Source: Jiella mangrovi | GTDB taxonomy: Bacteria; Pseudomonadota; Alphaproteobacteria; Rhizobiales; Rhizobiaceae | Direction: 5' to 3' | Length of the DNA stretch: 64,000 nt | Assembly (NCBI RefSeq): GCF_017815135.1 | Contig: NZ_JAGJCF010000005.1 | Location: 1 to 64,000, forward strand | Shown here: positions 128-22,534 of the stretch, piece by piece | Layout: each line of letters starts with the position of its first letter | How positions within the stretch are numbered: the first letter of the stretch is position 1 | Notes under the pieces: model-generated | Database searches by the model: none | What the model saw: only the letters and a program-made list of their open reading frames with translations | Told to the model about the DNA's origin: nothing | Position numbers and translations under genes: made by a program

Positions 128-144
128 CGCGACACATAGTTTGC
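128..144 (+). repeat. Left 17-bp terminal inverted repeat of the Tn7-like element
   Basis: CGCGACACATAGTTTGC is identical to the reverse complement of 22513-22529, about 22.4 kb away. The identity stops at base 127, where the IS481-like end begins. A weaker related motif, CGCGACTCGCGAG, follows at about 172-184 and may be a second transposase site. It is likely a TnsB-type binding site. Confidence 0.6.
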
Positions 145-321
145 GAATTTCCACCCAAAGATCGCATTTTTCGCGACTCGCGAGTATAAATCTCCTTCTG
201 ATTGCAGTTCTAGATCATCGGCAATTGTCGAGGCATCAGGCGGACAAGTGAGTCGGGCGCCAGAATTTTTTTGTCGGCGTAGAAAGCACTCGTCTGTTGA
301 GACGCGTTGAACCATGCAAAT

Positions 322-2244
322 TTATGGCAAATCATATATGGCCTGCTGCAGTGCTTGATAAGAAGAAATGAGGCGTTGGGTCGGCTGACCCCTAGCAGTC
401 ATCGCATGGACGCGAAGCTGCTCAAGTTCGACGGGCCCCCGGGTCAATGCCTGTTCGATCTCAGCACGGCGCTGCGCAATGCCGTCCTTGACCTGTCGAA
501 CGGCGGTTGGGTCTGCTCCGGCGGCCGGATTGAACACGAACCTTCGTTCGATGCTTGCTCGCCAGCTGACCAGCTTCCCTGTCGTGGCATCTCCAAAGCC
601 AGGGACGGCGAGGACCTTGTGGTAAGACACGTCGAACGCATCCTCGATCCCGTAGGATGCAAGGGTTGCCTTTCGGCCGTCGCCGATCCCTGAGATCTTT
701 GCGCGAGCGATGAGGTGCCCTTCCAGGAAGCGCTGCAGCTGGATCTCACGACGGCGGCGCTCGAGGTCGTCGAGGCGTGACTTCTCGAGTGCAGGAAGTT
801 CCCGATACTCTCCCCCCAACTTCTTGAGCGCCACCTTCTTTTGTTCGAATTGTCCGGCGCCTGCCTCAGAATTCCAGTCTCGGAGGGCGGCAGACCAATC
901 ATTTTCGGCGAGGGTCTTCGCCCTCTGGAGCTGCTGGTAGGCTTCTCCCCCGCCGAAGACCAAGTAGGCCGCGAGGAACAATCCGAGAAACGCAATCGAC
1001 AGGCCACCAGCCATCAGTAAGGCGCAGAGGGCAGCGAACATCAGACCGCCGACGCGACGACCGAAATGGTTCCGGCGGATCTCCTTTGCGGCTTGAGATC
1101 TTTTCATCTTCGGAGGCAGCGGGATTTTCCCGGTCGGATCAGGGGCAGGTCCTGGACCGAGCACCCTATCGATGGCTGCGATCGCCATGGTGAGATCGAA
1201 GTTTCTCGCGGTGGCAGAAGCCGAAGAAGATCCAGCTCCGGGGAAGAGCGAGACCCCCATTCCGTTCTCGAGACGGCACCAAGGACATCCCGGAGCGTTT
1301 TTCGGGTGGTGATGAGCAGGATTGACCCGACAGGGGGTAAGCTCGGTCTCGAAGCGGCTAAGGGCTGCGATCCATTCGGCAGCGTTTGGCCTGTTTTGGA
1401 AGAAACGTGGGTTCGAGGAGAAGGCACGTTCGAACGTAGACGCGAGATCGGGAGTAAGGTCGCCGAGCGTAGGAGCGAACGGTGGCGGGTCCATCCTCGT
1501 CTCGGATTTCCTCTGAACGCTGTAGGCGAACCGGCCTTCCTTTATCGCCTTCTCGATCGGCATGTCTCCATGCCCGCTGTACCGACCGGCGAAAGGATGA
1601 CGCCCCATAAAGAGAAGTTGAAACGCAATCACGGCGAGGCCGAAGCCGTCGTGTGACTGATCGCGATCGACTTTATCCAGCGCCGCGCCTTGTAGCTCGG
1701 GGGGAGTGTACTCGCCGACGCCGACTCGACACCTGTACACGACCGTACCGGACCTCACCTGGAATGAGTCAGCGTCGATGAGCGTTACGGTCGCCTGATC
1801 GCTGACGAGTATTCCGCTATGATTTATATCTCCGATCACGCATCCCGTTTGATGAACGCTCGCAATCGCGCGAGCGACGTTTGTTGCGGTTCTCGCAAGG
1901 AAGCGGAAATCTGCCTTCGGGAACTCGATCTTTCGGCTTCCCGGTGCGTAGAGTTCGTGAATAGGCTTAACCCCTCCCACTTTGCGCATGGTGAAGCCGA
2001 CGAATGCACCGCTGCCTTCGAAAAGTGTCTGAATGGGAAAAGCGACGAGGGCCGAGCGCTTGTAAAGCTCATCTGCAACCATCGTGGAGATCTTGTCACG
2101 CCGCTCCAGGTGATTTCCGTCAGTATAAACCTTTGCGGCAACATCGTTGTCGCTGTCGACGTGGAATACCGTTCCCTCTCCACCCTTGCCGAGCACCGAC
2201 GTCAGACGGATCTGACGGCCGGCGCCCGTTCGATATTCCTTCAC
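322..2244 (-). CDS. TerY-P triad protein kinase with zinc motif, two membrane helices and HhH domain
   Basis: This 640-residue protein starts with a kinase-like domain: glycine loop GKGGEGTVF at 19-27, lysine 38, a catalytic-loop equivalent GDIN at 138-141 (D139) and DAD at 157-159 in place of DFG. A Cys cluster (C305, C320, C323, with intervening His) suggests a zinc knuckle. Residues 401-432 are very hydrophobic and probably form a membrane hairpin. A charged coiled coil (about 435-510) leads to a helix-hairpin-helix-like segment (515-565). Kinases with this build accompany TerY and PP2C in Ter-linked phosphorylation triads. The start overlaps the phosphatase stop by four bases, so translation is coupled; it is the last gene of the operon. 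The kinase loops are atypical, so activity is inferred. Confidence 0.85.
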   Translation of the reverse strand: MKEYRTGAGRQIRLTSVLGKGGEGTVFHVDSDNDVAAKVYTDGNHLERRDKISTMVADELYKRSALVAFPIQTLFEGSGAFVGFTMRKVGGVKPIHELYAPGSRKIEFPKADFRFLARTATNVARAIASVHQTGCVIGDINHSGILVSDQATVTLIDADSFQVRSGTVVYRCRVGVGEYTPPELQGAALDKVDRDQSHDGFGLAVIAFQLLFMGRHPFAGRYSGHGDMPIEKAIKEGRFAYSVQRKSETRMDPPPFAPTLGDLTPDLASTFERAFSSNPRFFQNRPNAAEWIAALSRFETELTPCRVNPAHHHPKNAPGCPWCRLENGMGVSLFPGAGSSSASATARNFDLTMAIAAIDRVLGPGPAPDPTGKIPLPPKMKRSQAAKEIRRNHFGRRVGGLMFAALCALLMAGGLSIAFLGLFLAAYLVFGGGEAYQQLQRAKTLAENDWSAALRDWNSEAGAGQFEQKKVALKKLGGEYRELPALEKSRLDDLERRRREIQLQRFLEGHLIARAKISGIGDGRKATLASYGIEDAFDVSYHKVLAVPGFGDATTGKLVSWRASIERRFVFNPAAGADPTAVRQVKDGIAQRRAEIEQALTRGPVELEQLRVHAMTARGQPTQRLISSYQALQQAIYDLP

Positions 2245-3014
2245 CGCCTTGCCCCGAGGATCAGTGATTTGTCGTCGTCGGTCCGGTCACAGATTGCCTT
2301 GCTATCGAGATATTCGCGAAGAGGTTTCGAGAGGGCGACGTTGTGACCGAAGATCTCCGAAGCGGCGACTGGGGCCGTCACCCGGTCAAAGAAGGGGCCG
2401 TGCGCTGTACGTTTCGCATGATCAAGGACCAGCCTCTCGATCCCGTCAGAGAAGATGGCGACGCGATCGAGGCGGACGGGGAGCATGACGATCGATGGCG
2501 TAGACATCGGATCATCCGTGATGAAGACCGTCGTCGAAGCATACTCGCCCTGGAATGGCCAGGATGGCACGACCCACTCTGACGTTCCCTGCTCTCTGAC
2601 GACCGCGGCACCGTCGCCGATATGGACAACAAGCGCACTCTCTGGCCCGGCGAGAAGACCGATAAGGGTCGAGGCACAGTCTCGAGGGCGTATCCGGGCT
2701 CTTCGAGCAAAAACGTTCACCCGCTCGCGTATATCGTCGAGCCAGTCGAAAATGTCCTCTTCCCTGATCTCGTCTATTCCCTTGCGCGACTTGAAGTGGT
2801 TCGACACCGCCCGAAGAAAGCCGGTGCAGACCATCCGGGAGCCGGCCTCCGCATGGCTAGCGGTGCCAGCGCCGTCGGAGACTACGGCTGCCAGAACGCT
2901 GCCCGAGATGGTTTCCATCTCCATACAGAGGGCGAAATCCTGGCATGGAAGCCCTGTTTTGAGATGGGATGTTCCGACCGACCGGGCGCGAGCCCATCCC
3001 CACGTACGATTCAT
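2241..3014 (-). CDS. PP2C-family serine/threonine phosphatase of the TerY-P triad
   Basis: The 257-residue protein has PP2C metal-binding motifs: QDF near 25-27, DGAG at 47-50, a central GDGAA, SDGIERL, and a C-terminal DDKS segment. It should remove phosphates placed by the adjacent kinase. I chose the ATG at 3014 because it overlaps the VWA gene stop (TGATG), which gives tight coupling. An upstream in-frame start at 3113 would add 33 residues without PP2C similarity. It lies between the VWA gene and the kinase gene, the usual order of the triad. Confidence 0.88.
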   Translation of the reverse strand: MNRTWGWARARSVGTSHLKTGLPCQDFALCMEMETISGSVLAAVVSDGAGTASHAEAGSRMVCTGFLRAVSNHFKSRKGIDEIREEDIFDWLDDIRERVNVFARRARIRPRDCASTLIGLLAGPESALVVHIGDGAAVVREQGTSEWVVPSWPFQGEYASTTVFITDDPMSTPSIVMLPVRLDRVAIFSDGIERLVLDHAKRTAHGPFFDRVTAPVAASEIFGHNVALSKPLREYLDSKAICDRTDDDKSLILGARR

Positions 3015-3694
3015 CAGACTGAAGCCCAGCCGTCCGGTGCGGTCGGGTTGGATAGCGGTACGGCGTCCCCGGGGTTCGAACGGGAGACAGAACTCAGGGA
3101 CGACGACAACCAAGCGAACAGTTCTCGGAATCGCAGCTCTTTCAGCGCGAGGGGCTGCCGCGTGGAGATCTCTGAAAGGATGTCCATTCTGGCCCCTTCG
3201 ACGCCTATAGCGAAGAAGCTGAACGCCTTTTCCGCTTCACCCTGCTTCACCTGAGCAGCCGCATTTTTCCAAGCATCAGTTGGGGCACCGTCGGTGATCA
3301 AAAAGATCCACGGTCGATAGTAGGAAATTCCGTTGGACTTATAGGTATTCTTACGGTCACGCAGAAGCGCCAGGCCCTGCTCGATAGCCGAGCCCATTGG
3401 CGTATCACCCTGATCCGACAGCGTCGGCGGAACCCAACTTTGTACGCCCGTGAAGTCGGATAGCACCTGCACCGGTCCGAAGGTGACGATCCCAACTTCG
3501 ACACGCTTCGCGGCCAAGGAGTCGGCATATAACTCGTCGCGGAAAAGCGTCAGCCGATCATTGAGTTCGCGGATCGGCTGACCGCGCATTGAACCGGATA
3601 CGTCCAACAGCAAGAGGCAAGGGCACCGAGGTTCCGGGTTGTCTACGAATTCGGCTCCGCTGAAAGGCTGCTGCTCAAACGGGTTGGACATCAA
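3014..3694 (-). CDS. terY: TerY-like von Willebrand factor A domain protein
   Basis: A 226-residue VWA protein. The MIDAS metal site is intact: DVSGS at 31-35, a Thr in the TPMGS segment, and the ITDGAPTD motif. TerY-type VWA proteins are thought to act as metal-dependent scaffolds or substrates in phosphorylation triads with PP2C and kinase partners, which follow directly here. The stop overlaps the PP2C start. About 150 bp separate this gene from the next upstream one, so an extra promoter may lie at 3695-3848. Confidence 0.88.
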
Positions 3695-3848
3695 GCGTTC
3701 TCCATTACGCAGTTCATGCTGTTGATATCGGTTGGTCGATTTGTAGACACGCTACTCCTGGTCAGGAGGCGTCTCGTGGATAAAATGTATAGAGACAAGC
3801 CGCGTCCGTCGCGCCCCGTTCGCCCGGCAAGCCGCTAAGATTGTATAT

Positions 3849-4181: not shown

Positions 4182-4234
4182 GAATAGCTCCCCAAATTTC
4201 TAGGACATGCCTCCGAATCGCCATTCTGCCGCAT

Positions 4235-4483
4235 CTAGGGTTGCGCATCCAGACGATTTTCACGGCTACTTATGGGACAGTACGAGGAGGCGATCGGTTC
4301 TACCTGAACATCGGGACTGAGGGTCTTGGTGGAGTAGCTGCGCTCAAAACCTTCATTAAGCTGTCGCCAAGCCTTGGCACGCAGCAGCCGCAATCTCTTG
4401 CGACGACGTTGGCACCACCCGTTCAAGGTCAAGAATGTCACGCTGAAAATGCCAAGGATCGCAAAATATTGGTCACGTGACAA
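4235..4483 (-). CDS. Small putative membrane protein overlapping the helicase 3' end
   Basis: An 82-residue reading frame with one hydrophobic helix (about residues 6-23) followed by a strongly basic stretch (QRRRKRLRLLR), typical of a cytoplasmic-facing membrane anchor. It begins 46 bases inside the helicase gene, so it would be translationally coupled to it. No family is recognised. Its place in a dense operon and its transmembrane-plus-basic pattern support a real gene; its short length leaves doubt. Confidence 0.42.
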   Translation of the reverse strand: MSRDQYFAILGIFSVTFLTLNGWCQRRRKRLRLLRAKAWRQLNEGFERSYSTKTLSPDVQVEPIASSYCPISSRENRLDAQP

Positions 4484-6693
4484 ATCGATCCTTCATGTCG
4501 CTTTTGCCAGAGGTTGCGCAGAAGGTTCTCTGAAACGTAATCATCGTACTTTGCATTTCTGAGATTTTTAACGAACGATGCAAGGTCGGCGACGGTAAAG
4601 GGCGTATTGGCGATCTTAGAAGCCGCGGCGCGCACGTCATCGGGGGAGCAACCACGAAAAACGAGGCCGATCTCCTCGGGCTCGCAGTCGTAGCCTGCCA
4701 TCGTGAAGGCAATCGCCGTCAGCGAGATCGCTTCGGCTCCTTCCCATAGTGCGACGAACGTGTTCGACCCCTCGTAAGCGAAGGGCGTTGAAGCGAGGTC
4801 AAATTCGCGAAATGCCGACCGGCCCTCCAGAAGAAGTCGCCCTGCGCTTTCATCGAGGTATCGGGGCACGTCGCTCTGGCCATAGACCACCAGCATCTCT
4901 CGAGCGAGTTCCGAGTGTATCGCCTCGCCTGACAGGCTATCGAACTCGGGCACCTTGCCCGCGGGGCTGGATACGACCTCAACGACCTTCGCGCGGTCGT
5001 CGACCGCTTCCACGATCCATCTGCGTCCTGCGAATGCCAAGACCGTGCCGACGCCAACGGCATTTGAAATCGGAATCGTTCCAAGCGTCCGGCCAGCCGC
5101 AACGAGCCGCCATTCCTCATCGGTCTCGAAAATCGCGTAGAAATCCCGCCCTTCGACGATCCTTTCGCCTTCGGTCGACAGCATCAGGTTACCATCTGGT
5201 GCCTGCTCGATCAGGGCAGTTTCCGGCGACGCTGCATGTCGGAGCATGGCTACATAGTCGGCCTTCGACAGCATGGCCAAGGGGCCAGCACCACAGATCG
5301 CGTCATAGAGCCTCGCAGGCGTTTCTCCCCCTCGCTGGGCTATGATCGAAAGCGTCTGGTGAAGAACGACCGTAGCCACGGAAGGGTCTTCACCGGCTGG
5401 CTCGACGAACTTTCGTATTAGCAGATTGATGGCCGCCACGCTCATGACGATGTCCGGGCGAAGACGATCGATGGCGGGTGAATCGGCCGTGACATACGGG
5501 ACATCCAGATAGATGCGCAGAATGGCCGGTGTGTCTTTGCGACGGCCGCTTCGACCAAGCCGTTGCCGAAGGGACGACAGTGATCGGGGCGGACCTATCT
5601 GGGCGACCGACTTCACGGCTCCAATGTCGACGCCAAGCTCGAGTGTCGTCGTCGCGACCGCGGTCGTCGGTAGTCCTCCCTCCCTGAGCCGGGCTTCAAG
5701 TTCCTCGCGAAGGCTTTTCGAAAGGCTGCCATGGTGCGGAAAGAACTCGTTCGGCACGCCGCAGGTTTCGCTCTTCACCCTCAACCGATCGGCGATCGTT
5801 TCGACCCGCTTTCGCGAGCCAGCGAAGACGAGGTTGCTGGTTTCGCGAAGACTGCTGAAGAGATGATCGACGATCTCATCGATTGCATCGGGCTTCGGTG
5901 ACGCGGAACCTCGAACTTCAGGAGGGTGAACGTACCCTCGGATCTGCAAACGCAGTTCGGGCGATCCGCCGGGCGACTCGACCACGGACACCGTGTCGCC
6001 ACGCCCCGGCGCGAGCCATTCGGCTCCTTGGCGCAGATCGCCGATCGTCGCCGATAGGCCAATCCGTCTGGGGCGCTTCGCATTCAGCACGTCGATCCGT
6101 TGAAGCAAGCTGGCAAGATGCAGCCCGCGAGGACCCCGGAGAAACGCATGCAGTTCGTCGATGACGATGAAGTCGACGTTGCCAAGCAAACGCCGCGCAT
6201 CCGCCGGTCGTCGCACCATCATCGCTTCGATCGACTCCGGTGTGATGAGAGCCACTCCCTTGGGATCTCGGCGCGCCCGCTGCTTGGCGGACTGTGGTGC
6301 GTCACCATGCCAACGAACGACATCGATCTCCATCCGCTCGCACAGGAGATCCAGCCGTCGGAACTGATCGTTGATCAGCGCCTTCAGTGGACTGATGTAG
6401 ATCGCGCCGAACCCTTCTCCGTCCCGTCCAGCGATGGCGGTGAGCACGGGGAGGAACGCAGCTTCGGTCTTGCCGGCGGCAGTGGCTGCAGCGATGAGGA
6501 CGTCGGCCTCGGACTGCAAGATCGTACGAATGGCGCGGTCCTGAACGTCACGCAGCTCCTGCCACTGCTGTTCCCAGATCCAGCGTCGGATCTCCGGATG
6601 CAGAAGATCGAAACTTCCCACAGTTTCAGAGTCGGAGGGTTTCAAGCTCGTCGCCTTCGGTGCCCGTGTCGCTCGCGTCGCCATCGGCCACAT
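4438..6693 (-). CDS. Lhr/BrxHI-like DEAD/DEAH-box superfamily 2 helicase
   Basis: A 751-residue ATP-dependent helicase. Walker A is AATAAGKTEA near 68-77, motif II is DELH (VIDELHAF), motif III is LSATIGD, and the second RecA lobe has GRSGRR (motif VI). The C-terminal third is an accessory region like that of Lhr and BREX BrxHI helicases. It should unwind or remodel DNA. It follows a BrxD-like DUF2791 ATPase with a 68-base overlap; brxD and brxHI are paired in some BREX systems, so a joint role in phage or plasmid restriction is likely. No other BREX gene (methylase, PglZ, BrxC) is present. An in-frame Met four codons in (6684) is an alternative start. Confidence 0.9.
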   Translation of the reverse strand: MWPMATRATRAPKATSLKPSDSETVGSFDLLHPEIRRWIWEQQWQELRDVQDRAIRTILQSEADVLIAAATAAGKTEAAFLPVLTAIAGRDGEGFGAIYISPLKALINDQFRRLDLLCERMEIDVVRWHGDAPQSAKQRARRDPKGVALITPESIEAMMVRRPADARRLLGNVDFIVIDELHAFLRGPRGLHLASLLQRIDVLNAKRPRRIGLSATIGDLRQGAEWLAPGRGDTVSVVESPGGSPELRLQIRGYVHPPEVRGSASPKPDAIDEIVDHLFSSLRETSNLVFAGSRKRVETIADRLRVKSETCGVPNEFFPHHGSLSKSLREELEARLREGGLPTTAVATTTLELGVDIGAVKSVAQIGPPRSLSSLRQRLGRSGRRKDTPAILRIYLDVPYVTADSPAIDRLRPDIVMSVAAINLLIRKFVEPAGEDPSVATVVLHQTLSIIAQRGGETPARLYDAICGAGPLAMLSKADYVAMLRHAASPETALIEQAPDGNLMLSTEGERIVEGRDFYAIFETDEEWRLVAAGRTLGTIPISNAVGVGTVLAFAGRRWIVEAVDDRAKVVEVVSSPAGKVPEFDSLSGEAIHSELAREMLVVYGQSDVPRYLDESAGRLLLEGRSAFREFDLASTPFAYEGSNTFVALWEGAEAISLTAIAFTMAGYDCEPEEIGLVFRGCSPDDVRAAASKIANTPFTVADLASFVKNLRNAKYDDYVSENLLRNLWQKRHEGSICHVTNILRSLAFSA

Positions 6694-7945
6694 CGGCCTC
6701 GACGTCCACCGTCACGTCGGCTTCTCCGACAAGACCTTGCCACGTAGTCCCGGGATTCTGCTCGAGGATCGCGAGGAGCTGCACGAAGGACTTGATCGTG
6801 TTCCTCGGCGTTCGGAAGTACGCTTCTCCGATTTTCTGGCTACAGTGGACCATGAACGCCTGAAGCGCTTCGTCGGGCACGAGGTGGTTCTCGGGATTGC
6901 CGCCTGCGAACACGCTCCGAATGTTCGCGAGCAGTACCAGAAGGTCCTCCGGCGTCAGGTTCTGCAGCCGCAGCACCGGTCCCGAGAGATCGACTAGGCC
7001 GCTGCCTGCGAAGGTGTTCTCGGCAAGACGGGACTGCAGCGCCTGGTAGCTGTAGAGACCACGCCGGGGGTCCATGAGAAACTCGGGAGTACCGCCGAAC
7101 ACGAACCCGATTCCACCGACGTTGCCTTGCAAGACGTCGTTGAGCATTCGCAGGATCTGCTCGAAATTCTGATTCCGCGCCTGCGAACTCTGAAGCTTGT
7201 AGAGGTTCACCATCTCGTCGAATACGACGAGCATGCCGTCATAGCCGGCCAGACGCACGAAGGCCGAGAGGAGCTTGAGAGCGTCGTAGACGTCGCCGTC
7301 ATCGATAATGTTGCGGACGCCGAGCGCCTGGCGCGCTTCCGTCTTGGTCGAGTATTCGCCGCGCAGCCATCGCAGTGCCGCCGACTTCGTCTCATCGCTG
7401 CCGTTTTCGCTGCCACGCCAATAGGCCTTGAGAACCGTCGCGTAGTCGTAGCCGCCGACATGCTCCTGAAGCTGGGCCAGCTTGGCGTCGATGACTTGCT
7501 CGACGTCGCGCCCGAATCCTTCCGCCTCCTTGACGCACTCGGTGACAAAGCGCTCCACGACGCTGGCGAGCGCGCCGCCCTCCGGTCTTGTTCTCGTCGC
7601 CATGTTGCGGACGGCTTCCGCATAGAGCGATCGAGCCTGTCCATTCGAAGCGTGCACCCGTCGGTCGGGGGCGAGGTCGGCATGGAGGGTGACGAGCTTA
7701 CGTTCGAGCGCGATCAGGCGGACGAGGTTGAGGAAGAACGTCTTTCCCGCGCCATACTCGCCGATGACGAAGCGAATTGCCGAGCCATCGTCCGCGATGC
7801 GGTCGATATCGCGGACGAGTGCGCCGACTTCGGCCGCCCGCCCGACCTGCACGTGCCGGAGCCCAGTCCGCGGGACAACCCCCGCGGAGAGTGCCTGGAT
7901 GATGGTGTCGCGTTCCTTGGGGCGGATAGCAGGCTGTCGGGTCAT
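6626..7945 (-). CDS. BrxD-like (DUF2791) ATP-binding protein
   Basis: A 439-residue P-loop ATPase. Walker A is GEYGAGKTF near residue 62, and Walker B is MLVVFDEMV in the middle. The segments between match the BREX ATP-binding domain family (DUF2791, BrxD), STAND/AAA-type ATPases thought to work with a helicase. The C-terminus is acidic (DVEADVADGDASD). The start overlaps the stop of the TerB gene by four bases, and the 3' end overlaps the helicase gene. It is probably the regulatory ATPase of the helicase. Confidence 0.88.
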   Translation of the reverse strand: MTRQPAIRPKERDTIIQALSAGVVPRTGLRHVQVGRAAEVGALVRDIDRIADDGSAIRFVIGEYGAGKTFFLNLVRLIALERKLVTLHADLAPDRRVHASNGQARSLYAEAVRNMATRTRPEGGALASVVERFVTECVKEAEGFGRDVEQVIDAKLAQLQEHVGGYDYATVLKAYWRGSENGSDETKSAALRWLRGEYSTKTEARQALGVRNIIDDGDVYDALKLLSAFVRLAGYDGMLVVFDEMVNLYKLQSSQARNQNFEQILRMLNDVLQGNVGGIGFVFGGTPEFLMDPRRGLYSYQALQSRLAENTFAGSGLVDLSGPVLRLQNLTPEDLLVLLANIRSVFAGGNPENHLVPDEALQAFMVHCSQKIGEAYFRTPRNTIKSFVQLLAILEQNPGTTWQGLVGEADVTVDVEADVADGDASDTGTEGDELETLRL

Positions 7946-10305
7946 GCTGCGTCTTCCATGGTCTGAAGTTCAGGCAGGAGGTGATCGACGACCACCAGGT
8001 CGCCGTCGTCTTCAAGAACGGTTTCGTCGAAACGGTCGAAGCCCCACTCGTTTATCGTCTCGATGGCACCGTCAGGCAGGAGCTTTAGCTCCCGGCAACA
8101 CGCCTCGAACTGCTTGCGGGACATCCGGCGCCAGCGGACAAGGGCCTTGAGCAGATTGGCATGCGCTTCGTCCAACCCAGCAAAGGGCGAGACCTGCGCA
8201 TCCTGGTGCTGGTCCTGATATTCGTGGGGCGTTTCGGCAGGCTCGTCGGGGATGTCCTCGCTGAAGATATCCGAGAGGAGCGAGGAAACAGCCACGGTCT
8301 CATTTCGAATACGTTCAAGCCGCGCATGGTCGATCGAGATTTCTGGCTTGGCCGGCTTTTGTTCATCTGGTGGCGCCGGAATTGGAAGGCCGCGGCTCGG
8401 TTCCGCAACGGCGACCACATGCAGCTCGTCGGCGACAACCGTGCCGCGATGAAGCGCTGCGTAGACGTGTTCCACTGGATAGCCCAGCGACTTGTGAAGC
8501 TTTTCGATGAACTTGACCTCGGCAGGTGAGACATGACCATCGGCAAGGACAGCCGATATCGCCGACTGCGTAACGCGCCGCTTCTCCATTTCGGGAAGAG
8601 CCGCGAGGCGCTTGAGGACCGGTGCCTGACTCGGGGCGTCCTTCAGGAGAAGCACCGCGAGGGCGGTTAGACGTTCCTTTTCGGATGACGTCAGATCAGG
8701 GATCGCCAAGAGGTCGGATTTCACGCTTTCCAACTCTTCCGGAGCCGAGTTCCCGTCGGCCGCCGCCGCGATCGCGCCGATTTCCACCATCGTCCGAGCA
8801 GAGCGGAAAGCAAGGGAATCGTGGCCAACGCCCCCTCCACCGATGGCGCGAAACAAGACGAGCCGACCATCCACAGTGGGCGTCGAGGCCCCGTGACGAC
8901 GATCCGGTTCATGTCCGACATCGAGCCGATCCAGGATGGAGGCGATCTGGTTCGCGGCTCCTGCTGAAAGCTTGGCCTTCGCATCGACCTTAATCTGCAA
9001 TGCCTCGAGAAGTCTTGGCACCCGCATCACGAGGTGCGCCTTCTCCGCAAATTGCAGATCGAGTTGTTTCCGGATCGCCGCAAGTCGTTTGCCCCCCGCT
9101 TCCATCATGATTTCCCGGGGAAGCGAGGAAGCAGCCTCGAGTGAACCACGAGACGCCGGATTCTTTCCGATAAATCGGCTATATGTGTCGAGCTGGCTGG
9201 TGCATGCTTCAAGGAGATCCTGCAGCCGCGTGGTGCGAGCCTTCAACGCCAGAACGTCGGGAATTTCGTCGTTGCCGATGGGAAGATCGCATTCGAACGA
9301 ACTGCTGGCTGGTCGATATTGCAGACGGAGCCGGGCCTTCGGCAGCTTGACGTTGAACCCCGTTGGGTACTGAGCCGAAAAACGATGACGCCACAGGGCA
9401 CGAAGCTCGTCGAAGCAGCGCCTGGCCGGTGTTCGCAATTGTGTTTCGGGATGCGATAACACCCAGACAAGAGCCTCGTCTTCAGTGAGCGGTGTTCCTC
9501 GCTGAAGGCAGCGGCCGAGGTAAAGGCGGACGGTTAGCGGCATGTCGTATCCGCCCAAGTCGAGACTTGGCTCGATATGGAAGCGGTCGAGATCACCAGT
9601 CACCGCCTCAGCCGTGTCGATGAATCGGCGGGCGTAATTCTTGAAAGAGTTGTTCGACCCGTAGATATGCAGAAGTCGCCTGACTTCAGTAACAAAGGCG
9701 CTCGCTTCCTCGACCACGAGATCGTGGAATAGTCGGCGCTCAAGACCATAGAAGAAAAGAAAGACGTAGCCGATTCCAACTTCGGGATCGTTTCTTCCTT
9801 CGGCGAGCCAATCCACATACGCTCGCCGCTGGTCCGGCCCAATTTCAGAATAAGCCGGCCAATAGGGCATTGAAGCACCGGCTTTGTCCGAAGTGGACTT
9901 AGATATAGAAAGCGAAGGGTCGATTACGCAGTTGTCGAACTGGCGGAATTGCCCCGAACTTCCCCTCTCACCGACGAAGATCATACCCGAAGTGATGAGG
10001 TGCCGGCTGATCGAAATGGTTTCTCCCGGTTGTATCCAGCGCGTTTTGGGAACGGTCAAAGCCTTCCGAGCTGGCGCGGTGATCGACATCGACGAAGGTG
10101 AAAAAGCTGGACCGTTGCTTGTTCTTTGCCGAGAGGGCGGGGATTTAGTTTGATTAGATCGCTTCGCTGGTGAAGAAGAATCTGCCGATCGTTTCTTCCG
10201 GCGAGCTTCAGACCTGGATTTGCGCCGCGCACGCCCCTCTTTGATGGCTCGAGAAATGACCCAGGCGGTCCCAACCAATATCAGCAGCCCGATTAAAGCT
10301 TCCAT
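7942..10305 (-). CDS. TerB-domain protein (TerB-N, TerB, TerB-C) with N-terminal membrane helix
   Basis: First gene of the defence-type operon, 787 residues. An N-terminal hydrophobic helix (residues 2-20) is followed by a basic, Ser-rich linker. A TerB-N domain begins near SEIGPDQRRAYVDWLAEGR. A TerB helical domain near residues 520-640 contains two paired acidic segments (AAAADGNSAPEE and AVLADGHVSPAEV) of the kind that bind metal in TerB. A TerB-C domain forms the last 100 residues. Proteins of this build link TerY-P triads to DNA-processing ATPases and helicases, as here. I chose the ATG at 10305; a TTG at 10326 would add seven residues. Confidence 0.85.
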   Translation of the reverse strand: MEALIGLLILVGTAWVISRAIKEGRARRKSRSEARRKKRSADSSSPAKRSNQTKSPPSRQRTSNGPAFSPSSMSITAPARKALTVPKTRWIQPGETISISRHLITSGMIFVGERGSSGQFRQFDNCVIDPSLSISKSTSDKAGASMPYWPAYSEIGPDQRRAYVDWLAEGRNDPEVGIGYVFLFFYGLERRLFHDLVVEEASAFVTEVRRLLHIYGSNNSFKNYARRFIDTAEAVTGDLDRFHIEPSLDLGGYDMPLTVRLYLGRCLQRGTPLTEDEALVWVLSHPETQLRTPARRCFDELRALWRHRFSAQYPTGFNVKLPKARLRLQYRPASSSFECDLPIGNDEIPDVLALKARTTRLQDLLEACTSQLDTYSRFIGKNPASRGSLEAASSLPREIMMEAGGKRLAAIRKQLDLQFAEKAHLVMRVPRLLEALQIKVDAKAKLSAGAANQIASILDRLDVGHEPDRRHGASTPTVDGRLVLFRAIGGGGVGHDSLAFRSARTMVEIGAIAAAADGNSAPEELESVKSDLLAIPDLTSSEKERLTALAVLLLKDAPSQAPVLKRLAALPEMEKRRVTQSAISAVLADGHVSPAEVKFIEKLHKSLGYPVEHVYAALHRGTVVADELHVVAVAEPSRGLPIPAPPDEQKPAKPEISIDHARLERIRNETVAVSSLLSDIFSEDIPDEPAETPHEYQDQHQDAQVSPFAGLDEAHANLLKALVRWRRMSRKQFEACCRELKLLPDGAIETINEWGFDRFDETVLEDDGDLVVVDHLLPELQTMEDAA

Positions 10306-10521
10306 TTCCTCGCCTTCGCCCGGCAACTACTCGAAGCCGCAGAATCGGTTCGCTACGACTGGCAGCGATTAGAACACTCGCTTAGGCTGTCTGCAACGAA
10401 GCGGTGCAGGTCGTCTTGGCGATCGAGTGGAAATTAACCATCGGCGAACTTATCAGAACGACCACTTGCCAACCGTCTTTTGTTCCGCATATGTTCGCGA
10501 CATGTTGATCCTCTCGCTCAT

Positions 10522-11280: not shown

Positions 11281-13238
11281 CATCGAAGGTCAGGAAGCTC
11301 GCCCGGCTTAGGAAGTCCTCGGTCGAGCCGGCCGCCGCCAACTCCGGGATCGACATGGGGATGCAGGACGCCATCGCCGAGGCAGTCGACGAGAGATTGA
11401 AGCGGATGTCTCCGTCGACGAGAATGATCTTCGACCGGGTGCGGCCGCTCGTCCCTGACGGTCTGAAGCGGCGCCTGGAGGCGGCAAAGCCCGCTCTCGT
11501 CGTCGTTCACGTCGCCGCGCATGGCTGGCGCCGGCCCGCCTACGACGCGATCGTCGCAGCACTCGAGGACGCGGTCCGGACCGAGGAGATCGTCTTTTCG
11601 CGGCCCCACTATGTGCCGGCGGACGAGATCGCGAGCCGTTCGTGGCAACGGAAGGGCCAGCGCGAACGGACTGAGCTTGTCATGTCGATGCTCTCGTCGG
11701 GTATCACCATCGTCGGCCTCGTCGCCGGAGAGGACCTCGATCCCGCGGTCGCGGCGATCGCCCACATGACCGTCGACGTCATCCGGATCGACGTTGCAGA
11801 CCTTGCGGGAGCCGTCGCCTCGGCTTTCCCGGATTCAAACGCCTCTTGGCCGGCCGACCTGGGTGTTTCCGACGTCGATCCCCAGTGGCTGGATCTCGCG
11901 ATCGGGCGGTCGTCGACCGCAGAGGAAGCGGTCCGACTGATCGCCGCGGCGCACCGCCGTCCGGCGACGGAAACGGCCGTGCCGATGCTTGAAAGCCTCT
12001 ACGGCTATGGGCCGGCCCGCGTCTGGGGGCTGCGGCTCGTCGATGCCCTGCGAGAATATCGGGCTGGTACGCGATCGTGGATCGACGTCGACGCCGGCGC
12101 TCTCTTCGTCGGCCCGCCTGGCACCGGCAAGACGCTGCTTGCCTCGGCGCTTGCCCGGTCGTGCGGCGTCGCCTTCATCCCGACGTCGTACTCGGCCTGG
12201 CAGGGCACGGGAGAAGGCCACCTCGGCGATGTGACCAGATCGATCCGGAAGACGTTCTCCGAGGCGGCTTCACAGTCGCCATGCATCGTCTTCATCGACG
12301 AGATCGACACGATTCCCACTCGAGGCGCCACGACGCGACACGACGACTGGTGGCGGACGATCGTGAACAATCTTCTCGAATGCCTGGACGGCACCGGCCG
12401 CCGCGAAGGCGTCATCGTCCTGGCGGCTTGCAACGACGATCGCAATCTCGATCCGGCATTGGTCCGTTCCGGACGCCTGGACCGGCGTTTCCATATCGGG
12501 CTGCCGAACGAAGACGATCTCGCAAAGATCCTCGCGCACCACCTCCCGACGGTTCCTGAAGACGAGATCCAGCCGGCCGCTGTCACGCTAGCGGGATCGA
12601 CGAGCGGCGCCGATGCGGCACGTATCGCAAGAGACGTTCGACAGCTGGCACGAAGCGAGGGCCGCGAACCCTCTGGCTCCGATCTTCTGAAGGTCGCGCT
12701 TCCTGTCGATGATCGACCGGCGGGTCTGCGCCGCCGTGTCGCCGTCCACGAAGCGGGTCATGCAGTGGCCATTCTCCGCCAAGGGCAGGTCCCGCGCAGC
12801 CTCTCAATCGTGGCCGCAAACGGGGGCGAGGTCGTTCACGACGTTCCTGTCTCTGAATTTCTTCTCGAGGACCTCCACGCGCAGTTGGCGATCGGCCTTG
12901 CCGGCCGGGCGGCCGAGGAAGTCGTTCTCGGATCGGTCTCGGCTGGTGCAGGCGGCCCACAGATGTCGGATCTCGGAAAGGCGACCCAGCTGGTGGCGAT
13001 GATCGAGGGCCGGTACGGACTCGGGACGCGCCTGGGTCTAGTCGAGAAGATCGACGAGGCTGTGGTCGAGCGTCGGCTGCGGATCGCCTATGCGGATGCC
13101 CTTCTCGCTGCGATGCGCGATCGTTACGCCATCGAAACGCTGGCGGAACTGGCTCTGGAGAGGCAAGTCCTCGGCCGAGCAACACTTTCTGCGTTCCGAG
13201 ACACAATTTGGCCTAATGAATTAACGGGACCGAAGTAG
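11277..13238 (+). CDS. Soluble FtsH-type AAA+ ATPase/M41 zinc metalloprotease
   Basis: A 653-residue protein with the two catalytic halves of FtsH. The AAA+ module has Walker A GPPGTGKT (279-286), Walker B IVFIDEID (337-344) and a SGRLDRR arginine-finger segment (398-404). The peptidase has the zinc motif HEAGH (491-495) and a downstream SDLGKAT segment that should give the third zinc ligand. Residues 1-260 are a different, soluble N-terminal domain with no transmembrane helices, unlike housekeeping FtsH. It should unfold and degrade selected proteins using ATP. It is coupled to the TnsA-like gene and lies inside the transposon, so its client may be a transposon or phage protein; this is inference. 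Confidence 0.88.
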   Translation: MTSKVRKLARLRKSSVEPAAANSGIDMGMQDAIAEAVDERLKRMSPSTRMIFDRVRPLVPDGLKRRLEAAKPALVVVHVAAHGWRRPAYDAIVAALEDAVRTEEIVFSRPHYVPADEIASRSWQRKGQRERTELVMSMLSSGITIVGLVAGEDLDPAVAAIAHMTVDVIRIDVADLAGAVASAFPDSNASWPADLGVSDVDPQWLDLAIGRSSTAEEAVRLIAAAHRRPATETAVPMLESLYGYGPARVWGLRLVDALREYRAGTRSWIDVDAGALFVGPPGTGKTLLASALARSCGVAFIPTSYSAWQGTGEGHLGDVTRSIRKTFSEAASQSPCIVFIDEIDTIPTRGATTRHDDWWRTIVNNLLECLDGTGRREGVIVLAACNDDRNLDPALVRSGRLDRRFHIGLPNEDDLAKILAHHLPTVPEDEIQPAAVTLAGSTSGADAARIARDVRQLARSEGREPSGSDLLKVALPVDDRPAGLRRRVAVHEAGHAVAILRQGQVPRSLSIVAANGGEVVHDVPVSEFLLEDLHAQLAIGLAGRAAEEVVLGSVSAGAGGPQMSDLGKATQLVAMIEGRYGLGTRLGLVEKIDEAVVERRLRIAYADALLAAMRDRYAIETLAELALERQVLGRATLSAFRDTIWPNELTGPK

Positions 13239-16703: not shown

Positions 16704-17840
16704 ATGCCGAAGTGGGATCTCGAAATCACGCCCGAGGAAGCGTTGGAAGACGAGGCTGCCGTTTTGGCCGCGCTCGACAATGCCTTGGCCAGCCTCGATG
16801 CGCTCCCACAAGACTACGAGCGTCGCCTGGCGGCAGCGAAGGGGGTGTACATCGGCCACGCCAAGCGTGACGGCAAGTTCAAGAAGCATTTTGCGAAGCG
16901 GCTGACCGCGGCGAAGGCGCAGGTGGGAGGCAAGACGAAGAGCGCCGGAGAGTACCTCACCGTCCTCGGCAGCTCCGGATCGGGGAAGACGACAATGACC
17001 CGGCGCATCATGGAAAAGACTGGGCTCTTCGATCCGATCGAGCTGCCAGGCCGAACACTACGGCCTGCGATCCGCATCCAAGGGCCGCGGCCGTTTACGA
17101 GTGGACAGCTCGCCATCTCGATTCTGAGGAAGGTGAAGATGGCGACCGATTCAAAGCTCGACCCGAACCACACTTGGCAGATCGTTAGAAACCACCTTCC
17201 GCGATCGCGCACGGCCCTCATCGTGATCGACGAAGCGCAGCATGCCCTCCGTCATTCCGATCCCTCGCATTCCAAGGACGTCAGAGACGCGATCAAGATC
17301 CTCGCCGAGGACGACGAATGGCCGGTGTCCTTCGTGTTCGTCGGAATTCCGATCTTCGAGCGCTTCGTGGTCACTGACAATGAGGTCAAGGGCCGTAACA
17401 CGACCTTCCTGATGCCTGATCTGAAGGTTGGCAATGACGATCCGTTCGTCGAGAAGCTCTTGGCCGAAATGTTGACAGCGGGCGAGCTTTCGATCGGCGA
17501 AATGGGTGATCACTTCACCCATCGTCTGATCTACGCCGGCGGTTGTCAGTTCGGTCGCTGCCAAAAGCTGATCCGGATCGCAATCGAGTCGGCCCTCATC
17601 AATCGCCGCGACACGATTCAAGTCTCCGATTTTGCCGAAGCCTTGCGGGAGCGAACCGGATGCGACGATGACCACAACACCTTCCTGGCGCCACGCTTCG
17701 AGTTGGTGCGGCACTGGATCAGTGATCCGGAGCTGGAGACTTACGTCGCCGAGGATGACATCCTGGTCAACGACGACGAGCGTGGATCGAAGGCCAGGAA
17801 GGTGGCGGAAGGCGACAGTCTGAAGCGGAAGAGGTCCTGA
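16704..17840 (+). CDS. tnsC: TnsC/TniB-like AAA+ transposition regulator
   Basis: A 378-residue AAA+ ATPase with Walker A LGSSGSGKTT (about 88-97) and Walker B LIVIDEAQHAL (about 173-183), both typical of TnsC/TniB. This protein assembles on target DNA, recruits the TnsAB transposase and mediates target immunity. I chose the ATG at 16704, one base after the tnsB stop; the longer frame would lie inside tnsB. tniQ starts four bases downstream, so the core is one transcript. Confidence 0.92.
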   Translation: MPKWDLEITPEEALEDEAAVLAALDNALASLDALPQDYERRLAAAKGVYIGHAKRDGKFKKHFAKRLTAAKAQVGGKTKSAGEYLTVLGSSGSGKTTMTRRIMEKTGLFDPIELPGRTLRPAIRIQGPRPFTSGQLAISILRKVKMATDSKLDPNHTWQIVRNHLPRSRTALIVIDEAQHALRHSDPSHSKDVRDAIKILAEDDEWPVSFVFVGIPIFERFVVTDNEVKGRNTTFLMPDLKVGNDDPFVEKLLAEMLTAGELSIGEMGDHFTHRLIYAGGCQFGRCQKLIRIAIESALINRRDTIQVSDFAEALRERTGCDDDHNTFLAPRFELVRHWISDPELETYVAEDDILVNDDERGSKARKVAEGDSLKRKRS

Positions 17841-19586: not shown

Positions 19587-19754
19587 GAATTCTTTCATTT
19601 AACATCTAGAAATCGCACGTTCTTCAAGGGGGGGGTGAACGTCGCGCTTGATATCCCGTCGGAAAAGTTTTCCTCCTGCGGGAGAAATAAGAAATCTTTT
19701 GAATTTGCGAGGTTAGGTGATTCACTCTATGTTCTCATGACAAGGAGCCACCGT

Positions 19755-19976
19755 ATGCCGCGTCTTAAGCTGTCTGATCTCGTCGTCAGCCCAGTATGCA
19801 AGGGCTGTGGCACCCCGCGCGTTCTTCGCGAGGGTGAGGTGGCATCGTCGACGTTTGGTCCGTGTTGTAGTTCTTCTAGGCGTGCGAAGGCACGTAGAGC
19901 ATTTAATCAGGCACCGTTGGACCTTGGAAGCGTCAAAGGTCCGTACATCGACATGAGCTTCGCCCGGAAACGCTAG
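19755..19976 (+). CDS. Small Cys-rich basic protein
   Basis: A 73-residue protein. The start is fixed by AAGGAG at 19742-19747, a strong ribosome site seven bases before the ATG. Residues 15-40 contain a CKGC pair and a later CC pair, a possible zinc-binding knuckle; the rest is basic. It lies just after tniQ but after a 168-bp AT-richer gap with its own likely promoter. Its stop overlaps the convergent kinase stop within the palindrome GCTAGC. No family is recognised. Confidence 0.5.
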   Translation: MPRLKLSDLVVSPVCKGCGTPRVLREGEVASSTFGPCCSSSRRAKARRAFNQAPLDLGSVKGPYIDMSFARKR

Positions 19977-21028
19977 CGCTGGCGGGCGAAAAAGTCTTCC
20001 AGTTCACGCACGCATTTGGACGGTGCGAGGTTGCCCTGCGATCCGCCTATAGACATTTTCCGGCCAGTTCCCATTGGTTCCGACCATGCGCGCCACGAGT
20101 GAGATCGAGGAGCATCTTGAGACCACAGAACGTGATGTATGCGTCCTTTCGTCGATCGTTTCCAGGTCACAGACTTTTCTGCGACGTCGCAATCCCAATT
20201 GGAAACCGGTAGCAAGGCGAGCCCACGGATCACGCTTTCACAAGAGCCATAACGTCTCTCCGTGTCGTCATTCATGGTCTGACGGATAAAGCGCCTCCAT
20301 CGATCTGGTATGTGCGGAAGCCACTTCAACTTCGTAGCGAATCCTCCGGAAGGTATCTCCGTCGCGGGTCTAGCCATGCGCGAGTACCAGGTATGACCAT
20401 GAAGTAAGCGATATAGGGTCATGCCGAACGCCCAGATGTCCGTCTTCACGCTAGTGAGAGGATCATACCAAGCCTCGATCGCGAGGTGGTCGAGGTAGCC
20501 TCCTCGACGTGCATAGCCTTCCACGATCTCGTCGGTGACAAGACCGAAATCACTAATCCGGGCGCAACCTCGATCATCGAGAAGGATATTCGCCGGTTTT
20601 ATGTCCCTATGTATCATCCCTCTCTGGTGCAAAGCCTGAAGCCCGAATGAGACTTCCGTGGCAATCTTGCGTACCGCCTTTGTCTGCATAGGCCCGCGCT
20701 TGTAGGGCCCGGAAAGCGAACCTGCTCGGCACAACGCCATAACGAATTGAACGCTCTCGCCGTCATCTCCTCTAACAGCGTAGTGTACCTGTGCGATATT
20801 TGGGTGGGTGGCCTTTGCAAGAAACTGGGCTTCTTTGACGAGTCCTTCTCGCCGTTTCTCCCATTTCTCGTCCGTTTCGCGTTGGCCGGTTTCGGGGTCG
20901 ATCTCCATTCGCGATAGCCGCTTCACGGCGACATCGCCATGAACCTCGTCTTCGGCGAGGAAGACCTCCCCAAAATGGCCTTCGCCGATTTTGTTGCCGA
21001 TCTGAATCCTCGATACCTGATTACTCAT
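19973..21028 (-). CDS. Serine/threonine protein kinase (Hanks type)
   Basis: A 351-residue kinase with a full set of motifs: glycine loop GEGHFGEV (15-22), AVKR lysine (36), HRDIKPAN (140-147) and DFG (160-162). An AFGMTLYRLLHG segment gives the F-helix. There is no transmembrane helix, so it is cytoplasmic. The C-terminal 70 residues are basic and unrecognised. Its start overlaps the stop of a 154-residue partner gene by four bases. Cytoplasmic kinases with small partners occur as stand-alone phage-defence modules; that role is inferred here from context. Confidence 0.87.
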   Translation of the reverse strand: MSNQVSRIQIGNKIGEGHFGEVFLAEDEVHGDVAVKRLSRMEIDPETGQRETDEKWEKRREGLVKEAQFLAKATHPNIAQVHYAVRGDDGESVQFVMALCRAGSLSGPYKRGPMQTKAVRKIATEVSFGLQALHQRGMIHRDIKPANILLDDRGCARISDFGLVTDEIVEGYARRGGYLDHLAIEAWYDPLTSVKTDIWAFGMTLYRLLHGHTWYSRMARPATEIPSGGFATKLKWLPHIPDRWRRFIRQTMNDDTERRYGSCESVIRGLALLPVSNWDCDVAEKSVTWKRSTKGRIHHVLWSQDAPRSHSWRAWSEPMGTGRKMSIGGSQGNLAPSKCVRELEDFFARQR

Positions 21029-21489
21029 TTGTTTTGATCCGCCAAGACCATGAAGACAGCCTCGCGACTTCCCTTTTTCATCTCACGACCGGCAATCTTC
21101 CCTTCCCAAAAGTCTTTGTCGTCGAGGTATGCGTCAACCTTCCGCTCACCAAATGTCCGACTAAGAACGGATTTGGCGACCGCCTTGGTGGGGCACACTG
21201 TGGAGGCGGCCGCGATTACAACGCCTCGAACTTCAGCCGACTTGAGATGGCTCAAACCCATGCCTTTTGACGAGTCGCTCGCCTTGACGACAACCTTCTG
21301 GATCCCGTGCTCGCGAAGGTAATTCGTGAGCTGGGCGAAAAGCGTCGCATATGCGCCTTCCCGATCGTCCTCCTGCAGCTTCCAGTTGTCGTCGAGGTTC
21401 AATGTTGCAGGACCGTCGTCAGGAACCTCCAAATCGACAATAGTGATCTTTTCACCTGACGCTACAATCCCAACGTGCCGCTCTGCCAT
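21025..21489 (-). CDS. Unknown protein coupled to the Ser/Thr kinase
   Basis: A 154-residue protein starting MAERHVGIVAS. Alternating strands at the N-terminus (HVGIVASGEKITIVDLE) and a later VVVKASDSSKGMG and RGVVIAAAS suggest an alpha/beta, possibly RNase H-like, fold similar to DUF3010-type proteins. This is a pattern impression. An in-frame start at 21531 would add 14 residues. Its 3' end overlaps the kinase start, so the two form a pair and it may be the kinase substrate or trigger. It is the outermost cargo on the right side. Confidence 0.6.
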   Translation of the reverse strand: MAERHVGIVASGEKITIVDLEVPDDGPATLNLDDNWKLQEDDREGAYATLFAQLTNYLREHGIQKVVVKASDSSKGMGLSHLKSAEVRGVVIAAASTVCPTKAVAKSVLSRTFGERKVDAYLDDKDFWEGKIAGREMKKGSREAVFMVLADQNK

Positions 21490-21734
21490 CGTTTGTCCTT
21501 TTGGCTCATCGCTGTCCCCATCAGGGGCCATTGCGAGATAATATACGACCTGAACGCGACAAGTCAGAAGGAGTATCCGATATTAACCTGTTGAAAAAGA
21601 GCGATAGAACCATCTGTAATGTCGCCTAAAACCCTGCAGGTCAGCGCTTCGCGAGAATGCAACCGTAAAATAATACCATTGACTGAATGTGCAGAACCTG
21701 TGGAAAACTGCGTTAATCTACTGGGTTTTTGAAG

Positions 21735-22330
21735 TGGACCCTGTTTTGCCGGACAGTCGGCGAACGGGTTCAAGCACTGAAGCGGATGAACTTCCGAGGC
21801 GATCGGAACTTCAGTCCTGAGTGAGGGGCAATTTGGCAATGATCGCCGATCCATCCCGGCAGCAAGGCCTTGATGGTCTCGGCATCCGGCAGGATCGTGA
21901 CGCGGGAATAGTCTCGCTTCAAGGTTTCACGAAAGCTTCCGGCAGTGCCGTTCGACTCTGGGCTGCGAACCGGCGTGAAGAGTTGCTTGAGGCCGAGGGC
22001 CGTCGCGGTATCGGCGGTCTCTGCCGCGATGTAGCCGTTTCCGTTGTCCGATAGCCAGTCGACCGGATAAGGCGTCTTCGTTCCGCCGAACCGCCTCTCG
22101 ACCGAAGCGACCATCAGGTCGCGCACCATCTCGCCGGAGGTGCCCGCGTTGGCGACGGCGAGCCAGGCGATGGTTTCGCGATCACAAGCGTCGAGAACGA
22201 AGAGGACGCGGACGACCTCGCGGTTTCGAGCATGCTGCTCAAGATAATCCGAACACCAGAGTATGTTCGCAAGGAGCGCGATGACGAGGCTATAATGAAC
22301 GCGCCTGGAACGACGTGCGATCGAGCGCGC
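21735..22330 (-). pseudogene. IS3/IS2-type transposase (OrfB) C-terminal remnant
   Basis: The reading frame from about 22330 to 21770 matches the second half of an IS3-family OrfB: WCSDYLE, a FVLDACDRETIAW strand, WLSDNGNGYIA with the second catalytic Asp, and SPESNGTAGSFRETLKRDY with the expected Glu position changed in part. The first half and OrfA are missing. A TGGACC-type IS terminus is visible at 21735. It is a decayed insertion near the right end of the transposon. Confidence 0.75.
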
Positions 22331-22434
22331 CAACGCGATCTTCGCCCAGATACAGAGCCGGTGGTCGATATGGTGGATGGGAAACGGAATTTCCATTGCC
22401 CAACAGATCTTCTGGAATTTAAATTTCAGTCTGT

Positions 22435-22528
22435 TGTGTCGCGGGAAGCGATCTATGTGTCGCACGCCCCTGCGAAAACCCGCGTTTCCGGCCCTCTTGG
22501 ATCGGGCCGAATGCAAACTATGTGTCGC
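22435..22528 (+). repeat. Three TGTGTCGC repeats at the transposon right end
   Basis: TGTGTCGC occurs at 22435-22442, 22456-22463 and 22521-22528, all in the same orientation. The last two extend to CTATGTGTCGC. The outermost copy is part of the 17-bp inverted repeat. Arrays of short direct repeats near the right end are typical binding sites for TnsB-like transposases. Confidence 0.5.
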
Positions 22529-22529
22529 G
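22513..22529 (-). repeat. Right 17-bp terminal inverted repeat of the Tn7-like element
   Basis: Reads CGCGACACATAGTTTGC on the minus strand and is identical to 128-144. Going outward on the minus strand it is preceded by TGTAG, so the TGT tip is at 22534-22532. Beyond the tip lies the serine recombinase sequence. Confidence 0.6.
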
Positions 22530-22534
22530 CTACA

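Follow-up and report, generated by a model that had tools for sequence, protein, structure and literature searches.

A Tn7-like transposon of Jiella mangrovi with a probable preference for tRNA 3' ends, a Shango system as cargo and a left tip interrupted by an IS481-like element

The DNA analyzed here (the window) comprises 64 kb from base 1 of contig C36 (330,885 bp) of the Jiella mangrovi genome (4.93 Mb). Near its start lies a mobile element of about 22.4 kb, which is best explained, with a probability of roughly 0.87, as a Tn7-like cut-and-paste transposon that has TnsA, TnsB, TnsC and a single long selector of the TniQ/TnsD type and homes on tRNA 3' ends. An initial annotation, prepared from the letters of the DNA, had read the stretch as a Tn7-like transposon with a tnsA/tnsB/tnsC/tniQ core. 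This reading was supported by the match of TnsB to Tn6677, the fold of TnsA, the TniB and TniQ domains and the target duplications of related elements, while the tRNA CCA end as the insertion site had been overlooked. The work defines the ends, the target and the duplications for Tn7-like elements of alphaproteobacteria that insert at tRNA 3' ends and are apparently non-CRISPR; one of them carries Shango. The features of the window are listed in Table 1.

The four core genes were identified by domain, fold and residue conservation. The DDE residues of TnsB were invariant across 4 sequences. For TnsA, a Pfam search with the window protein itself gave no match, and PF08722 matched weakly in 6 of 12 TnsA homologues (best 0.0011). 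The predicted TnsA structure had a mean pLDDT (predicted local distance difference test) of 88, and its first four PDB matches were TnsA or the TnsABCD complex (E 5.6e-6 to 1.3e-5; Z 9.3-10 in VIA-align structural alignments, which were confined to the matches of Foldseek and do not exclude families absent from these). In an alignment of the 12 sequences, E29 and D66 were invariant, and the VK motif had its lysine in 10 sequences and an R in the other 2. E29, D66 and K81 are presumably equivalent to E63, D114 and K132 of Tn7 TnsA. The open reading frame (ORF) listed for TnsC starts with GTG at 16590, yet homology starts at its residue 37; judged by sequence, the ATG at 16704 is the likelier start. 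A PDB sequence search with TnsA, TnsC, TniQ and a second TnsA-like protein (TnsA2) returned nothing usable, and no TnsB at >=60% identity was found in the plasmid records searched.

The core lies between two copies of GCAAACTATGTGTCGCG, an exact inverted 17-mer found on the minus strand at 128-144 and on the plus strand at 22513-22529. Thus, the exact inverted repeats about 22.4 kb apart described in the initial annotation were recovered. With up to 3 mismatches, the 17-mer had 3 matches in the window, as compared to a mean of 0.15 in dinucleotide shuffles (n=100; none reached 3). Exact copies numbered two in the whole genome, one on each side of the tns genes, and the other 4 matches carried 3 mismatches; one of these (22448-22464) is the second right-end repeat. 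A dispersed repeat was thereby ruled out as the origin of the 17-mers. The right end contains three related repeats (22433-22443, 22454-22464 and 22519-22529) and finishes with its tip at 22534, in agreement with the extra repeats and TGT tip noted before. Within it, TGTGTCGC occurs on the plus strand at 22435, 22456 and 22521; in the rest of the 64-kb window it has one plus-strand copy at 50246 and one minus-strand copy at 129. The combination of TGT/ACA tip and several repeats is present at the right end, and at the left end the tip has been replaced by the end of an insertion sequence (IS). Since the element no longer has its left tip, which would lie about 5 nt beyond the 17-mer, position 128 is not the true left end.

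Table 1. Transposon ends, genes and adjoining features of the window.
Feature	Position	Strand	Basis
IS481-like element end at contig edge; tip ...GGTCGGACA at 127; frame start MPWMERSVMDERLRFVA	1..127	-	Identical 127 bp at C2, C14 of genome
Transposon left end without tip; 17-mer at 128-144	128..180	+	First ~52 nt homologous to Aurantimonas left end
Kinase-like protein (TerY-P-like triad)	322..2244	-	Pfam Pkinase E 5e-7, under Pfam cut-off
PP2C phosphatase (TerY-P-like triad)	2241..3113	-	Pfam PP2C_2, E 1.9e-38
VWA protein, TerY-like	3014..3694	-	Pfam VWA, E 5.9e-9
SngC helicase (Shango)	4438..6693	-	PADLOC SngC, E 1.9e-241
SngB ATPase (Shango)	6626..7945	-	PADLOC SngB, E 1.6e-175
SngA, TerB-domain (Shango)	7942..10326	-	PADLOC SngA, E 5.6e-92; Pfam TerB_N, TerB_C
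Second TnsA-like protein (TnsA2)	10636..11280	+	NCBIfam TnsA_like_Actin 1.2e-6, under its cut-off
FtsH-like AAA+ ATPase with M41 zinc protease domain	11277..13238	+	Pfam AAA 1.8e-31, Peptidase_M41 1.3e-12; GPPGTGKT, HEAGH
TnsA endonuclease (E29, D66, K81), 206 aa	13860..14480	+	Predicted fold; conserved residues
TnsB DDE transposase (D300, D396, E432), 741 aa	14477..16702	+	Pfam Mu-transpos_C; solved Tn6677 TnsB E 2e-32
TnsC/TniB ATPase	16704..17840	+	Pfam TniB 2.1e-12
TniQ/TnsD-like target selector, 580 aa, C-terminal helix-turn-helix	17844..19586	+	Pfam TniQ 5.9e-14, HTH_17 6.7e-8
Ser/Thr kinase of cargo block 2, similar to Mads mad6 / PD-T4-6	19973..21028	-	Pfam Pkinase 2.4e-37; PADLOC mad6 1.3e-47
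168-aa protein, function unknown, overlaps kinase gene	21025..21531	-	No family match
IS3/IS2-type transposase C-terminal remnant, inside element near right end	21778..22318	-	NCBIfam PRK09409 2.9e-41, residues 140-319 of 21770-22735 ORF
Transposon right end, three TnsB-like repeats and tip at 22534 (TGTAGCGCGACACATAGTTTGC reading inward)	22433..22534	-	Homology to Aurantimonas right end
CCAGT, putative right copy of target duplication (tRNA CCA + 2 nt)	22535..22539	+	Compare CCACT on both sides in Aurantimonas
3' remnant of site-specific recombinase gene	22538..22792	-	35% over all 85 aa to annotated 'recombinase family protein' (Sinorhizobium)

The tRNA target became apparent from related elements. 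TnsB loci (80) were collected and scanned with an end motif for both tips. The closest TnsB found (70% identity) belongs to an element of Aurantimonas manganoxydans SI85-9A1 (L152) that shares six genes in the same order, i.e., TnsA2 (65%), the AAA+/M41 protein (63%), TnsA (63%), TnsB, TnsC (61%) and TniQ (only 40%). This element of 37,960 bp holds its tns core within the same ends and is flanked on both sides by a perfect CCACT duplication, 2 nt past the CCA of tRNA-Glu(CTC). Its right end, nearly identical to that of the window, aligned over about 105 nt with a score of 136 (best of 200 shuffles 25), and the left ends aligned over about 52 nt with a score of 57 (best of 200 shuffles 29). The right flank in the window, CCAGT, starts with CCA, as expected for an insertion 2 nt past a tRNA end. 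Both ends were found in 4 of the 80 TnsB loci (L179, L198, L199 and L207); all four had a perfect 5-bp duplication and left tips 9-10 nt past the CCA of tRNA-Arg(ACG). A single end was found in six further loci (L155, L180, L181, L184, L189 and L211), with the left end of L189 and L211 at the same kind of tRNA-Arg site and that of L181 beside a tRNA-3'-like sequence in which ARAGORN calls no tRNA gene. In genome G007, an end motif lies 3 nt past tRNA-Glu. The 5-bp duplication that had been predicted was thus found in Aurantimonas and in every locus with both ends, while the window copy gives CCATT, on its best left partner, versus CCAGT.

Some of these loci showed additional tips. In L199 (20491-20530), a second left tip directly follows the 5-bp duplication of the first element, i.e., two Tn7-like insertions stand in tandem at one tRNA. 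In L179 (20336) and L207 (20349), the right duplication is followed by TGTAGAACGTCA, perhaps the tip of a further element at the same tRNA, and in L211 two near-identical left tips (4234 and 4329) lie about 95 nt apart behind one tRNA-Arg.

On this basis, the following course of transposition is proposed. TniQ would recognize the tRNA end, TnsC would link TniQ to TnsB, and TnsB would bind CATAGTTTG-type repeats at both ends. TnsA together with TnsB would excise the element, and insertion about 2 nt past CCA would duplicate 5 bp and keep the tRNA whole. The left tip of this copy was later interrupted by an IS481-like element. Besides Shango and a TerY-P-like triad, the copy carries a kinase block and the pair of TnsA2 and the AAA+/M41 protein. 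For Tn7-like elements, three reports describe tRNA attachment sites used via TnsD/TniQ and 5-bp duplications (PMC11406308, PMC10293859, PMC8649781). Likewise, type I-B2 and I-D CRISPR-associated transposons (CASTs) such as PmcCAST, McCAST and CyCAST share with the present elements TnsA, TnsB, TnsC, a TniQ/TnsD selector, a tRNA site and the 5-bp duplication, the latter seen here in the relatives (PMC10293859, PMC11406308). CyCAST is reported there to insert about 30-33 nt past its tRNA, whereas the insertions described here lie 2-10 nt past CCA. In contrast to the CASTs, the window element has unfused TnsA and TnsB and possesses the TnsA2 and AAA+/M41 pair. Among 20 ORFs, Pfam revealed no Cas effector, and weak Cas3-type matches occurred only on the SngC helicase.

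The left border is formed by bases 1-127, which recur without a difference at the ends of contigs C2 and C14 of the same genome, so that the repeat ends at 127 (C2 also shares base 128). Since the window starts at base 1 of C36, the interior of the IS and the left flank lie outside it. Hence, the earlier claim that the left identity stops at an IS481-like terminus was supported, with the IS itself beyond the window, and the left tip is indeed occupied by an IS481-like end, as had been suggested. A consequence missed at that time is that this copy is probably stranded, since it has lost the tip nucleotides where TnsB cuts. The frame start in 1-127, read by eye, has the form MPW...MDER, which we take to be an IS481 family resemblance, and the TGT/ACA tips also fit that family. 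The element differs from it in that 6 of the 7 left ends found lie at tRNA 3' ends; its interior is not assembled.

The IS481-like element is tRNA-associated. Its left-end pattern (<=3 mismatches) was found at 7 places in the genome, six of them 9-10 nt past the CCA of tRNA-Met, -Ser(GCT), -Arg, -Pro, -Ser(TGA) and -Gly, and the seventh abutting another copy. Three left ends (C6, C7 and C16) and three right ends (C2, C14 and C36) are identical copies at contig edges. Among their nine left-right pairings, a 3-nt match was seen only for C6-C14 (TTT) and C7-C36 (CGC). In other genomes of the genus, 5 of 36 among the matches listed showed the same spacing at tRNA-Ser or tRNA-Arg. Three ORFs beside two such left ends in relatives contained no transposase, and the stretches examined near the relatives' left ends yielded no IS481 right end to match; these may therefore be solo ends. 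Loci assigned to the IS481-like element, besides window 1-127, are L075, L076, L077, L078, L079 and L081. In the open-access library searched, no paper on tRNA-targeted IS481 elements was found. To judge by the fixed tRNA spacing, a small IS may use the same safe harbour, which raises the question of how the IS finds the tRNA end.

To the right of the element, a short gene remnant follows. It is named a recombinase on the strength of the initial annotation and the match to Sinorhizobium; no recombinase was matched in Pfam (weak unrelated matches below cut-off) or PHROGs (none). In genome G035, DNA 86% identical to window 22541-22686 is located directly beside the 3' end of tRNA-Arg(CCT), and on contig C16 of the own genome tRNA-Arg(TCT) runs into CCAGTTCGGAAT with no transposon. 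An empty site joined to the recombinase 3' end, as had been predicted, thus has analogues in G035 and C16, with identity of the locus uncertain. As the left flank, the tRNA-Ser on contig C7 is the probable candidate. When C7 was joined, the pre-insertion junction read CCATT and the tip TGACC (TGA, not TGT), with 4 of 6 nt matching the Aurantimonas tip (random chance 0.037). C16 as the simple left flank was ruled out: there, CCAGTTCGGAAT leads into the IS end, and C16 and C36 share no 3-nt match. When C36 was compared with the DNA downstream of tRNA-Ser and tRNA-Arg (60 kb in G001, 40 kb in G003), the matches were short and did not decide the left flank.

Several observations weigh against a tRNA-homing transposon. 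The left junction is not assembled, and CCATT on C7 does not match CCAGT on the right. Moreover, the right flank, CCAGTTCGGAAT, resembles the tRNA-Arg context of C16, so that the two sides may stem from different tRNA loci. Among relatives, a right end was sought in G007 and not found, and in nine TnsB regions of other genomes a tRNA was present only in G007 and G009 (none in 7 of 9), the tRNA-His of G009 having no adjoining transposon end. Finally, 43 of the 80 TnsB loci were scanned for tRNAs, with a call in 7 (in L158 inside tnsB) and none in 36, many of which do not reach the left end. The mismatch and the origin of the right flank would be accounted for if the left half of an insertion at tRNA-Ser had recombined with the right half of an insertion at tRNA-Arg, and the tandem insertion in L199 is in line with such a hybrid. 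It is considered possible but the less probable course, since no second copy of the ends exists in the genome, point changes in a dead end could yield CCATT, and the C7 link is itself indirect. Far less credible, indeed very improbable, is that the 17-mers represent an IS481-type repeat and the 22.4 kb an island instead of a single transposon. IS481 and Tn7-like ends do both carry TGT/ACA tips (PMC11406308), and a loosely similar core was seen here, but the restriction of the exact 17-mers to two copies flanking the tns genes speaks against it, and the same ends with target duplication in Aurantimonas contradict it. Thus, a Tn7-like transposon at tRNA 3' ends remains the preferred explanation.

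Directly upstream of tnsA, the element encodes TnsA2 and the FtsH-like AAA+/M41 protein, with a 4-nt overlap between the end of the first gene and the start of the second. The presence of two TnsA-like proteins had escaped the initial annotation. TnsA2 was modeled with a mean pLDDT of 64 (block means of 72-91 at residues 41-140 and 38-55 beyond). Its PDB matches included 9bw1, 1t0f and 1f1z; the first four, with E 7.6e-6 to 3.2e-3, were structures of TnsA or of the TnsABCD complex, and alignment to TnsA structures gave Z 7.2-7.5 over 177-183 residues (27-214) as compared to 5.4 for the next match, although a Z below 8 alone can reflect a common arrangement. Pfam gave no matches for 7 TnsA2 sequences. 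In 7 of 7 aligned sequences, the motif helix no longer has its E, and another residue stands in place of the K that follows the D strand; the D (PDF) is kept, the positions being assigned by motif, not by structural alignment. TnsA2 (P0001) was therefore ruled out as the working TnsA. In the AAA+/M41 protein, Walker A and HExxH were present in 10 of 10 sequences.

The distribution of the pair was determined among relatives. It lies directly upstream of tnsA in the window, in Aurantimonas, G007 and G030, while G009 has it in inverted orientation at a distance of about 11 kb. Of the 80 TnsB loci, 10 gave an M41 match (that of L209 being weak) and 9 a TnsA2 match, with several loci ending at a contig edge. 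Conversely, 46 M41 matches were obtained and 30 given loci, of which 12 had TnsA2 (the contig of L131 ends before the upstream gene). TnsB was encoded within 40 kb on the same contig for 9 of the 12 M41 loci with TnsA2 and for 4 of the 18 without (Fisher p 0.008, uncorrected for relatedness; tallied by hand from a TnsB search that scored at most 5 candidates per genome). In 13 M41 loci chosen for having no nearby TnsB, TnsA, TnsB, TnsC and TniQ were absent throughout the 14-20 kb read, and TnsA2 was present in two, one of which (G050) has TnsB 19 kb away. In G007 (L123, G007:C4:161049-162704), TnsA2 and the M41 protein are 82-93% identical to those of the window, as compared to 43% for TnsB and 39-46% for the rest of the core. 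The contrast in identity indicates that the pair was exchanged between elements in a cargo-like manner. The M41 frame of G007 appears broken near its end (two frames; 581-aa ORF).

Two roles of the pair were weighed, and cargo is the likelier one. The pair would then be a stand-alone defence or stress module, carried like Shango, and this view, favoured though not strongly, agrees with its exchange in G007 independently of the core, with the occurrence of M41 relatives that lack tns genes close by and with the defence ATPase IetA as the nearest PADLOC match of the AAA domain. It has to accommodate the preferential linkage of the TnsA2-bearing M41 type with TnsB, the conserved position of the pair in four elements and a transposition protein as the best fold match of TnsA2. 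The latter findings fit better with a part of the machinery, i.e., a remodeller of the element's own. A degenerate TnsA paralogue, which by motif lacks two catalytic residues, would act as adaptor between the AAA+ zinc protease/unfoldase and either TnsC or TnsB. The ring would dismantle or destroy the strand-transfer complex after tRNA-directed insertion, or limit TnsB levels. For this role speak the TnsA fold match, of which only about residues 41-140 are well predicted, the loss of the motif E and K in 7 of 7 sequences, the 4-nt gene overlap, the position upstream of tnsA and the TnsB linkage (p 0.008). A precedent exists in the host unfoldase ClpX, which improves integration by type I-F CASTs and is thought to dismantle the post-transposition complex (PMC12326709, PMC10761935). 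Nevertheless, a machinery role is rather unlikely, given the rarity of M41 (10 of 80) and TnsA2 (9 of 80) at TnsB loci, the high identity of the G007 pair beside a divergent TnsB and a broken-looking M41 frame, the displaced, inverted pair of G009 and the absence of TnsA, TnsB, TnsC and TniQ from the 14-20 kb read at 13 of 13 selected TnsB-distant M41 loci. Because of the role of ClpX in type I-F CASTs, remodelling is worth testing: the pair would stand in for a host factor on which these CASTs partly depend, and a degenerate TnsA with an AAA+ protease offers a testable built-in counterpart of this borrowed factor. In the open-access library searched, no paper was found in which a Tn7-like element encodes a protease of the FtsH-like or M41 kind.

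The remaining cargo forms two separate blocks, as had been annotated, namely a Shango/TerY-P-like block and a kinase block. A TerY-P triad consists of adjacent VWA, PP2C and kinase genes; in the TerY-P-like triad of the window, VWA and PP2C are clear and the kinase is under the Pfam cut-off. The VWA protein (3014-3694) also matches the phage family phrog_28389 (function unknown) over nearly its full length (E 1.5e-91). SngA, SngB and SngC are adjacent as overlapping ORFs on the minus strand, which is the arrangement by which Shango is recognized. Shango is a known three-gene system of a TerB-domain protein, an ATPase and a helicase (PMC10250203), and here it is located on a Tn7-like element with the triad alongside. 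Ten cargo/IS queries, including Shango, the VWA/PP2C/kinase triad and the kinase block, had no match in the Aurantimonas element (tblastn, E 1e-5), and eight such queries tallied across the 80 TnsB loci gave zero matches. Beyond the recombinase remnant, the intergenic region at 22866-22969 of the window contains a partly palindromic repeat, of which the genome has about ten other copies, complete or partial.

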